From assembly GCF_008330225.1 (NCBI RefSeq), contig NZ_CP042466.1, positions 754,501 through 818,500 of the forward strand: DNA of 64,000 bases, written 5' to 3'. Position numbers and translations under genes: made by a program. The DNA comes from Geobacter sp. FeAm09 (lineage in GTDB: Bacteria > Desulfobacterota > Desulfuromonadia > Geobacterales > Pseudopelobacteraceae). The notes under the pieces were generated by a model. That model had not been told where the DNA came from. It saw nothing but the letters and a program-made list of their open reading frames with translations, and did not search any database. This document shows positions 8,156-23,187 of this stretch, in pieces. Every line of letters starts with the position of its first letter. Position 1 is the stretch's first letter.

Positions 8156-8161
8156 GGTAGT

Positions 8162-8241
8162 CGATAATACTCAACCATCCGCGAGGATGGGGCGGAAAGC
8201 CTACAGGGTCTCACCGAGACAGCCGGGTTGCCGAAATATCA
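8162..8241 (+). promoter_or_regulatory. GEMM-I riboswitch, probable GEMM-Ib (3',3'-cGAMP) subtype, copy 1
   Basis: The aptamer shows all GEMM-I elements in order: a hairpin CCATCC-GCGA-GGATGG with a GNRA tetraloop, the conserved GGCGGAAAGCC junction, a second hairpin around GGGTCTC-ACC-GAGAC, and the closing GCCGGGTTGCCGAA. It closely resembles the Geobacter RNAs shown to bind cyclic AMP-GMP. It has AATAC at the place where Vc2-type c-di-GMP aptamers carry the ligand-contacting G20, and the A there is the published selectivity signature. It is identical over 80 bases to copy 3 at 23108. The subtype assignment rests on remembered alignments. Downstream lies an intrinsic terminator and the beta-barrel gene. 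Confidence 0.88.
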
Positions 8242-8266: not shown

Positions 8267-8334
8267 CATTTCATCCCGACCCGTTGCCCACGGCAAGTGA
8301 TGGACAAAAACACTATTCCCTAAAGGAGACCATC

Positions 8335-8937
8335 ATGAAGAAGACCATCTATTCCTGCTGTTTGGCCTTGTCGCTATTTCTGGCCGTCAACCCCGCCATG
8401 GCGGGCGATATCAAGGGTAGGCTCGGCGTCACCGGCAGACTCGGCTTTCTGGTCCCGGCCGACAGCGAGCTGTCGGGGCGCAACGCCAGCACCGACACCG
8501 CTTTCGTCGGGGGCGGCGGCTTTATCTACGGCATAACCAACAACATCGCGGCGGAGCTCGACATCACCCATACCGACTACGATGTCCACGGCTTCGGTGA
8601 AGGCGGCAACGCCGAAACCACCAATTTCTCCCTGGGCGCCCAGTACCGTTTCGACGTTACGGTCCCCCAACTGACCCCCTATGTGGGCGCCGGCCTGGAT
8701 ATCCTGATCAACGATTTCAGCTACTCCGACGGGACCAAGACCGACGTGGACAACACCGTGGGTGTCCATGTCAGCGGCGGCGTCGACTATTTCGTAGCCA
8801 AACAGGTTGCCCTGAACGCCCAGCTCAAGGCGGTCCTGAGCCCCAACGCCGACATCAACTATCTGGGAAGGAAAGCCGGCAACATAGACCCCATGAGCAT
8901 CTCCACGACCTTTGGCGTGCGATACTTCTTCAACTAG
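8335..8937 (+). CDS. Outer-membrane beta-barrel protein (OmpA/opacity-like, 8-stranded type)
   Basis: A 200-residue protein with a signal peptide (MKKTIYSCCLALSLFLAV, cleavage after AMA) and alternating hydrophobic/glycine-rich strands. It ends in a terminal phenylalanine-type C-terminus (FGVRYFFN), typical of small outer-membrane barrels. AAAGGAG precedes the ATG by six bases. Motifs such as GGGFIYGITNNIAAELDITH resemble OmpW/opacity-type porin-like proteins; the exact family is unclear. Transcription passes through a probable cGAMP riboswitch, so surface composition appears to be tied to second-messenger level. A strong terminator follows 20 bases after the stop, making the gene monocistronic. 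Confidence 0.85.
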   Translation: MKKTIYSCCLALSLFLAVNPAMAGDIKGRLGVTGRLGFLVPADSELSGRNASTDTAFVGGGGFIYGITNNIAAELDITHTDYDVHGFGEGGNAETTNFSLGAQYRFDVTVPQLTPYVGAGLDILINDFSYSDGTKTDVDNTVGVHVSGGVDYFVAKQVALNAQLKAVLSPNADINYLGRKAGNIDPMSISTTFGVRYFFN

Positions 8938-9018: not shown

Positions 9019-9552
9019 TCAGCGCCGGATCGTGTCCCCACCCAGCAGCAGGCTGTACTGCAGATAGGCCTTCAGGCGCTCCGGCGTATTGACCGTCTGG
9101 GCATAGATGAGCCGCTCCATCTCAGTGGCCTCGCTCTGTTGGAGGCCCCGGACGATCTTGAGCATCATGGCGGCGTCCCGGTAAGACTGATCCAGCCCCT
9201 TCGCCTCCTCCGCAGTCCTGGGCGGGGCGGCCATCACATCCTGCATGGCCTTGGCCATGGTCATGAGGATGGTGCGTTTCACGTTCGTCGTATAATTGGC
9301 ATAGATCCAGATATGCACGTCGTCGCGGATACCGCTGCCGGCGGTATCGATCCCCGCCAGGGTGGCGTTGTTGGCCGCCGCGTCCGGCACGGGCGGCAGG
9401 TGGGGGTTCATCTCCGCCACCGTGGGGACGACGGGTGCGATCTTTTTTTCAGGCCGGTAGACGAGGTCGCCCATACAGGCGGCGAGACAGCACACAAGCC
9501 CAGCCGATACCATCAGCCCCACCATATGTGCGCTCTTTTCCATAGCCGCCAT
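9019..9552 (-). CDS. Hypothetical lipoprotein with NGIRDDV-type motif
   Basis: A 177-residue protein with a signal sequence and lipobox (VCCLAAC) near residue 26. The mature part contains VPDAAANNATLAGIDTAG followed by SGIRDDVHIWI, a pattern seen in uncharacterised secreted proteins of delta- and gammaproteobacteria in which an acidic, calcium-site-like GxRDD motif precedes a helical domain. The rest is helical with no catalytic residues recognised. GGGGAGC lies before the first ATG; two internal ATGs are possible starts. It converges on the beta-barrel gene across a shared terminator. Function unknown. Confidence 0.6.
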   Translation of the reverse strand: MAAMEKSAHMVGLMVSAGLVCCLAACMGDLVYRPEKKIAPVVPTVAEMNPHLPPVPDAAANNATLAGIDTAGSGIRDDVHIWIYANYTTNVKRTILMTMAKAMQDVMAAPPRTAEEAKGLDQSYRDAAMMLKIVRGLQQSEATEMERLIYAQTVNTPERLKAYLQYSLLLGGDTIRR

Positions 9553-9767
9553 CTCTGCTCCCCGTCCGCAGGTTTACGTCAATTTGCCTGTTATTAATGC
9601 ATGCCGCCCTTTCCCCCTCGGCTGAAAGCCGGCGAAGTATTTTGCATCACCTCCGGGATCGTTGCAAGGGCAAACATGGGGCGTACCCAAAAGGCGGCCC
9701 CTTTTGCGTGCCCCCTTGACCGCAGGAGCGGGTTTGGACGAAAATGAGGGCACGAGGAGAACATGCG

Positions 9768-10205
9768 ATGCCGGACTATATCGTCACCTGCACATCATGC
9801 GGCGCAGCCAATCGCATCCCCGCCGACAAGGAGGGGAAAAGGGGGCGGTGCGGCACCTGCCGCGCCACCCTTCCGCCGCTGTACCACCGCCCGCAGCAGC
9901 TTACGGAACAGACCTTCGACGCCTTCGTGCAGAACTATCCGGGGCCGGTCCTGGTGGAGTTCTGGGCCCCCTGGTGACCGCACTGTGTCTCATTCGCACC
10001 GGCGGTGCGGACAGCAGCGGAACGACTCGCGGGAAAGGCGGCGGTCTGCCAGGTGGATACCCAGCAGAACCCGGCCCTTGCAGCACGGTTCGGCGTGCGG
10101 GGCATACCGGACGTCGTGCTGCTGCGCAACGGCAGGGCCGCCTCCCGGCTCGCCGGGGCCCAGAGCGTTGAGGCCTTGCTGGCCTGGTTCCACCAGCAGC
10201 AATAG
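9768..10205 (+). CDS. trxC: Thioredoxin 2-like selenoprotein (UGA-encoded Sec in the active site)
   Basis: Read through one in-frame TGA (9975-9977), this is a complete 145-residue thioredoxin 2: an N-terminal zinc ribbon (Cys 8, 11, 28, 31) and a thioredoxin fold with EFWAPW-U-PHC, later GVRGIPDVVLLRNG (the cis-Pro loop) and a normal C-terminus. The TGA replaces exactly the first active-site cysteine of the usual WCxxC, and the resolving Cys73 is present. The reading frame is continuous on both sides, so this is not a frameshift. A SECIS-like hairpin follows. Preferred start: ATG with GAGGAG eight bases upstream. The predicted product is a cytoplasmic dithiol-selenol oxidoreductase. A nonsense mutation is the alternative. 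An automated caller would give two fragments (about 9744-9977 and 10005-10205). Confidence 0.85.
9978..10012 (+). promoter_or_regulatory. Predicted bacterial SECIS element
   Basis: Immediately after the UGA, bases 9995-10000 (CGCACC) pair with 10004-10009 (GGTGCG) around a three-base loop GGC. The loop guanine lies 23 bases after the UGA. This matches the published bacterial SECIS pattern: short apical loop with an early G, stem of at least four pairs, roughly 16-37 bases from the UGA. Because bacterial SECIS elements overlap coding sequence, the hairpin also constrains the codons that follow the active site. Confidence 0.7.
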
Positions 10206-10324: not shown

Positions 10325-10768
10325 TCACTCCGTCGGCGCCTGCTCCAGGACGACGAAATCCCTGGAGACGGCAAAGACATCATCGACGTACACCTTGACC
10401 TGGTGTGTGCCCACCCCCAGTACGGACGCCTGAATACCGGACCAGACATTGAGGGGCGGAAGGCTCGACTCAATATTCATGGCACCTTGGGACACCAACC
10501 GCCCCCCCGTATACCAGCGGTACGTCATGACATGGGGGCCCCCCTCCTGCTCCGGGTCATCCCACGAGAACGAGGTGACGACGTAAACCTTCCCCCCACG
10601 GGCGAACGTATCGGTAACCCCGGTCGGCCCCTGCATTTTTGACACATTCTTCGCGAGAAAACATCTGGTGACGTTCTTTTCTCCAAGCGCCACACTCCCC
10701 CACGAAGCGCAGCCTCCCAGAAGCGACACAAGTCCCGACACTACGATGAGTGAGCGTATAATCCCCAT
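10325..10768 (-). CDS. Hypothetical lipoprotein
   Basis: A 147-residue protein with a short signal sequence and lipobox (SLLGGCASWG). The mature part looks beta-rich, with RGGKVYVVTSFSWDD and a late segment VLGVGTHQVKVYVDDVFAV. That arrangement resembles small immunoglobulin-like or jelly-roll domains with an aromatic strand (YRWYTGGRLVSQG). No enzyme motif is seen and the family is not recognised. The Shine-Dalgarno sequence is weak (AAGAGA). The gene converges on the selenoprotein gene, with about 120 bases between their ends and no clear terminator there. An envelope-associated role is likely from lipidation alone. Confidence 0.6.
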   Translation of the reverse strand: MGIIRSLIVVSGLVSLLGGCASWGSVALGEKNVTRCFLAKNVSKMQGPTGVTDTFARGGKVYVVTSFSWDDPEQEGGPHVMTYRWYTGGRLVSQGAMNIESSLPPLNVWSGIQASVLGVGTHQVKVYVDDVFAVSRDFVVLEQAPTE

Positions 10769-22928: not shown

Positions 22929-22952
22929 AGCCGAAAATTTTTCAGGGATAGA

Positions 22953-23032
22953 CGACAATACTCAACCATCCGCAAGGATGGGGCGGAAAGCCTATAGGGT
23001 CTCACCGAGACAGCCGGGTTGCCGAAATATCA
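22953..23032 (+). promoter_or_regulatory. GEMM-I riboswitch, probable cGAMP subtype, copy 2 (first of tandem pair)
   Basis: Same architecture as copies 1 and 3, differing from them at three of 80 positions: GACAA for GATAA at the base of P1, a GCAA instead of GCGA tetraloop, and CTATAG for CTACAG. All three changes keep the structure. The A at the G20-equivalent position is retained, so cGAMP preference is predicted. Confidence 0.88.
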
Positions 23033-23060: not shown

Positions 23061-23107
23061 GTGCCGCACCGCGCTGCCCGCCGACGGCAGTACAACCAGG
23101 TGGTACA

Positions 23108-23187
23108 CGATAATACTCAACCATCCGCGAGGATGGGGCGGAAAGCCTACAGGGTCTCACCGAGACAGCCGGGTTGCCGAAATATCA
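23108..23187 (+). promoter_or_regulatory. GEMM-I riboswitch, probable cGAMP subtype, copy 3 (second of tandem pair)
   Basis: Identical over 80 bases to copy 1 at 8162-8241, fifteen kilobases away. It starts 48 bases after the T tract of the first unit. Being downstream of another complete riboswitch-terminator unit, it forms a serial gate on the same transcript. Confidence 0.88.

Follow-up and report, generated by a model that had tools for sequence, protein, structure and literature searches.

A zinc-ribbon thioredoxin gene of Geobacter sp. FeAm09 with an in-frame TGA that is almost certainly read as selenocysteine

Thioredoxins attack disulfides through the first residue of the active site, and one gene of Geobacter sp. 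FeAm09 carries a TGA codon at exactly this position, which raises the question of whether the codon is read as selenocysteine (Sec) or ends the protein. The gene lies in a window of 64,000 nucleotides, the whole stretch of DNA analyzed here, taken from a complete chromosome of 4.1 Mb (positions 754501-818500). The host belongs to the Oryzomonas group; its nearest named relative is Oryzomonas japonica, the homologue of which shows 94% protein identity. The gene and its parts, in window coordinates, are as follows.

9754..9759 (+): Shine-Dalgarno-like GAGGAG, recognized from the sequence, 8 nt before the ATG at 9768
9768..10205 (+): putative Sec-thioredoxin coding sequence, 145 amino acids with TGA taken as Sec, from ATG 9768 to a TAG stop, supported by orthologues
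9789..9860 (+): N-terminal zinc ribbon with two CxxC pairs (C8, C11 and C28, C31), PF21352, E 6.7e-08
9894..10190 (+): thioredoxin domain, residues 43-141, PF00085, E 2.6e-26
9975..9977 (+): in-frame TGA, codon 70, predicted Sec70, the first residue of UPHC
10107..10109 (+): cis-Pro codon (P114, in the GIP loop), without variation in alignments A1 and A2

The active site reads EFWAPW-TGA-PHC, and the TGA is the sole internal stop. Beyond it, the frame continues for 75 residues without a frame shift, through the GIP loop that holds the cis-proline, to the TAG ending at 10205. The initial annotation had proposed both that the TGA replaces exactly the first active-site cysteine and that the frame runs on to a normal stop, and both proposals were borne out. 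In the N-terminal part, the Pfam model Zn_ribbon_Thio2 (PF21352) matches residues 7-33 above its cut-off, and all four zinc-ribbon cysteines are invariant in alignment A1. An AlphaFold model of the protein has a mean pLDDT of 93, and in Foldseek its top matches over the full length are thioredoxin 2 crystal structures (PDB 7ysi, 2ppt, 3p2a and 7d6l; E 1e-13 to 1e-16, with 33-35% identity in the Foldseek alignments), which likewise combine a zinc ribbon with a thioredoxin domain. The protein scores 107.5 bits with the NCBIfam TrxC equivalog model, below the cut-off of 125. Judged from these matches, 9768-10205 (+) encodes a zinc-ribbon thioredoxin of the Trx2/TrxC type that falls outside the NCBIfam equivalog model and is predicted to bind zinc. 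The usual Trx2 active site is Cys-Gly-Pro-Cys, whereas UPHC is found here. Pro-His between the active-site residues is shared with DsbA; however, the layout is that of a zinc-ribbon Trx2. Identity with DsbA was rejected, as the protein matches PF00085 and not the DsbA domain PF01323, and Pro-His alone is insufficient for such an assignment.

A search of 141 Geobacterales genomes with a match threshold of E 1e-25 revealed 89 homologues, 76 of which contain exactly one in-frame TGA and 12 of which contain no internal stop. The remaining one (genome G450, locus L197) has two TGA codons and a TAA and is apparently decayed. Homologues of the order share 47-94% protein identity, and the TGA occupies the identical codon in all those read; an initial set of 57 related genomes gave the same picture, with almost every close homologue carrying it at this codon. 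The rows lacking TGA carry TGC or TGT where read, and this column holds only TGA, TGC or TGT; thus, the check for Cys or TGA in relatives showed a conserved TGA that is replaced only by cysteine codons. Three loci were missed by the motif pattern used for the active-site rows; L187 and L206 were read separately as UPHC, and L127 was left out. No homologue was found at E 1e-25 in 57 of the 141 genomes, some of which are incomplete. Taken together with the 12 homologues without TGA, this indicates that neither the protein nor its Sec is indispensable. In a phylum-wide sample of 395 genomes, the homologues outside Geobacterales are Cys proteins, mostly with CGPC, the exception being a family designated f59.

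Regarding the signal for Sec insertion, a hairpin was found directly downstream of the TGA.

9993..10011 (+): bacterial SECIS hairpin TTCGCACC-GGC-GGTGCGGA, with core stem 9995-10000 / 10004-10009 and loop 10001-10003

The hairpin follows the pattern TT-CGCACC-GGY-GGTGCG-AA, starting 15 nt past the TGA, with the core stem starting 17 nt past it. The published bSECIS model, as quoted in one report, calls for a loop of 3-9 nt with G in the first two loop positions, a stem of 4-16 bp, 16-37 nt from UGA to loop, and a minimum free energy at or below -7.5 kcal/mol (PMC13188914). The present hairpin agrees with this model, having a 3-nt GGC loop, a 6-8 bp stem, 23 nt spacing and -10.3 kcal/mol. Within the hairpin, third codon positions are nearly fixed (GCA in 25/27, CCG in 27/27 and GTG in 27/27), unlike most of those around it, which vary. 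The six core pairs are intact in 47-48 of 48 distinct Sec rows, the loop is always GGN, and three Sec rows carry a compensatory C-G to T-A change in the core. The mean hairpin energy of the Sec rows is -10.5 kcal/mol, and -9.7 for the 18 coding bases, as against about -2.5 kcal/mol after synonymous recoding of the same 18 bases (300 trials, lowest -4.0). The 12 distinct Cys rows of the order have a mean of -3.3, and one core pair is kept in only 3 of the 12. The SECIS is therefore conserved at silent sites, and its conservation tracks Sec. A search for the same core elsewhere in the genome yielded none, this hairpin being the one exact match.

The enzymes and the tRNA for Sec synthesis and insertion are encoded in the same genome, where all four of selA, selB, selC and selD were found.

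C1:554035: selA
C1:870435: selD, which itself has one in-frame TGA
C1:3514452 (+) and C1:3339800 (-): two copies of selB (side loci L155-L157)
C1:1276813 (-) and C1:3341800 (-): two tRNA-Sec genes, 86/94 bases identical (side loci L155-L157)

With this machinery, the conserved TGA and a SECIS hairpin that tracks Sec, the earlier proposal of Sec at the attacking position gained firm support, and the UGA at 9975-9977 is almost certainly read as selenocysteine. Two or three tRNA-Sec matches were obtained in several other Oryzomonas genomes as well. The selB copy near C1:3339800 loses its frame within eight consecutive C near the 3' end, and the usual C-terminal sequence resumes in a different frame; this reflects either a homopolymer error or a genuine frameshift. 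In genome G010, the Sec-thioredoxin gene is followed after about 40 bp by a tRNA-Sec gene on the opposite strand (L010 1966-2063 (-)). In G027, selB and tRNA-Sec were not above the cut-off, and the Sec-thioredoxin gene is present only as a fragment.

Phylogenetic analysis placed all the Geobacterales rows in one group (support 99), inside which Sec and Cys were exchanged three times, giving an 11-row Cys clade and two lone Cys rows, L008 and L029; the tree has few columns and modest support, and the direction of change is taken from nesting and not from a rooted reconstruction. The 11-row clade has a disrupted hairpin, and drift has reached even the encoded amino acids (e.g., FAPAVR to FEPAVR). 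The two lone rows, which are nested among Sec proteins, keep the hairpin and are most simply read as recent changes. One genome of each Cys lineage (G033, G001 and G044) still has selB and tRNA-Sec, and thus Sec was lost from the thioredoxin and not from the organism. The decay of the SECIS in the Cys clade and its retention in the two lone rows form a clean natural experiment on Sec retention, within a comparative record from one order, in which the protein exists in 76 Sec and 12 non-TGA versions. These natural Sec/Cys pairs, which differ little elsewhere, would be suitable for measuring the effect of Sec in a UPHC or CPHC site. Family f59 (L153 and L154, from genomes G151 and G253) comprises zinc-ribbon thioredoxins with an in-frame TGA at the same codon and, behind it, a SECIS-like hairpin whose loop contains GG; however, the motif is UGHC, the dipeptide being Gly-His, and the hairpin sequence is unrelated. 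Given its separate place in the tree, f59 represents an independent, second origin of Sec in zinc-ribbon thioredoxins, elsewhere in the phylum.

The dipeptide between the two redox residues was the other peculiarity pointed out in the initial annotation, which compared it with DsbA-type active sites. Its presence was confirmed, as UPHC occurs in 54 of 54 Sec rows of Geobacterales, but a specific tie to Sec did not hold: the Cys rows are CPHC in 12 of 13 cases, with one CTHC. A coupling of Pro-His with Sec was rejected, given that the Cys revertants keep Pro-His and the Sec form of f59 has Gly-His. Since Pro-His is carried by all the Sec rows and by nearly all the Cys rows, it is a clade-wide trait that originated no later than the clade itself and persists where Sec has been lost. 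According to two reports, changing CMPC to CPHC raised the potential of an archaeal thioredoxin by 66 mV, the mutant at -221 mV still being far more reducing than DsbA (PMC4395160), and Patrx2, a cytoplasmic thioredoxin with CGHC, has a potential of -170 mV and isomerase activity (PMC12830090). By analogy with these proteins, an active site with Pro-His should be more oxidising than one with Gly-Pro. The foremost alternative is, therefore, a selenoprotein that acts mainly as an oxidant or disulfide isomerase instead of a reductase owing to its DsbA-like dipeptide, and the raised potential of the archaeal mutant, the isomerase activity of Patrx2 and the persistence of Pro-His in the Cys rows, which makes it probably functionally relevant, all point in this direction. 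Nevertheless, a signal peptide is not apparent at the N-terminus by eye, the architecture is that of a zinc-ribbon Trx2, the archaeal CPHC mutant is far from DsbA in potential, and Sec in an active site should lower the redox potential again, so that such a role is unlikely.

On sequence grounds, namely the gene itself, a UGA at its nucleophile codon, a SECIS downstream, a complete Sec pathway and selection on the full-length protein, the gene very probably encodes a selenoprotein thioredoxin with SelB-dependent Sec. SelB on the hairpin would deliver Sec-tRNA-Sec to the UGA, yielding the 145-residue protein instead of a 69-residue fragment. In the chemistry known for thioredoxins, the Sec70 selenolate would attack substrate disulfides and Cys73 would resolve the mixed selenosulfide, after which the Sec-Cys bond could be returned to the reduced state; the simplest candidate for this step is the genome's one clear NADPH-type thioredoxin reductase, the only thioredoxin reductase above the cut-off. 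As the cell also has one ordinary Cys TrxA with the motif CAPC, the Sec protein is most likely an extra thioredoxin, and it is probably faster or more specialized than TrxA. A quite improbable variant is that it serves as a dedicated partner with an unusual potential, lowered by Sec and raised by Pro-His, for a pathway special to metal-reducing anaerobes; if so, examples could be the handling of selenium or metal(loid)s, or maintenance of the nuo complex, next to the operon of which the gene lies in some genomes.

The selenoprotein reading also has to be weighed against other fates of the UGA. It may act mostly as a stop, giving a 69-residue zinc-ribbon product, or be decoded as Cys or Trp, with Sec inserted only some of the time, as selenium allows; the open frame ahead of the TGA does contain a complete zinc ribbon, and Sec insertion competes with termination. 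However, the region after the TGA is under protein-level constraint, with PHC, the cis-proline and W140 all invariant in the alignment, which indicates that the full-length protein is what selection sees, and the silent-site conservation of the SECIS speaks against this alternative as well, leaving it highly unlikely. A pseudogene or a sequencing error, in which a Cys codon mutated to a stop, has in its favor the in-frame stop and the decayed look of the G450 relative with its TAA and second TGA, but is effectively ruled out by the order-wide conservation of a lone TGA in 76 homologues of many genera, with intact frame and SECIS.

Selenium thioredoxins of Geobacter have been known since about 2005-2007, and the present gene is a further, well-supported case. 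In the parts of the literature covered, G. sulfurreducens, G. metallireducens and G. uraniumreducens are each credited with a thioredoxin selenoprotein (Zhang 2006, PMC1794560), and GSU3446 is described as the G. sulfurreducens thioredoxin selenoprotein in a three-member TGA cluster (Fujita 2007, PMC1914089), this 2007 paper being the only one found on GSU3446. Lists of known prokaryotic selenoproteins also include Trx with UxxC and give a biochemical reference for it (PMC9312934, PMC13188914); the experimental reference is Kim et al. 2015, the title of which states a catalytic advantage of Sec (PMC9312934). The protein of that study, compared by description only, likewise has Sec as the first active-site residue. 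It is reportedly a protein of Treponema denticola. Graded SECIS decay after reversion, a second origin with UGHC and Pro-His as a clade trait were not found in the passages covered by a non-exhaustive search.

As to the gene neighborhood, the Sec-thioredoxin gene immediately precedes a nuo (complex I) operon in four Geobacterales genomes (L161, L167, L168 and L170). The Geobacter Sec-thioredoxins come from different species of the same bacterial group and are members of the same family with an in-frame TGA predicted as Sec; judged from group, family, Sec and the nuo neighborhood of these four relatives, the present gene may be an orthologue of GSU3446, which was compared by description only. 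GSU3446 presumably adjoins the second nuo cluster of G. sulfurreducens. An operon conserved across the order was not found around the gene, the nuo context being limited to the four genomes, and an assignment of function from a conserved operon was rejected for this reason. The neighbors in the window are conserved only in Oryzomonas genomes, and the immediate ones (9019-9552 and 10325-10768) gave no Pfam match. Further upstream, a c-di-GMP-I riboswitch at 8159-8235 (+) lies just ahead of a gene for an OmpW-like outer-membrane protein (8284-8937). On the other side of the Sec-thioredoxin gene, two very similar c-di-GMP-I riboswitches are arranged in tandem at 22950-23026 and 23105-23181 (+), ahead of a long open frame.
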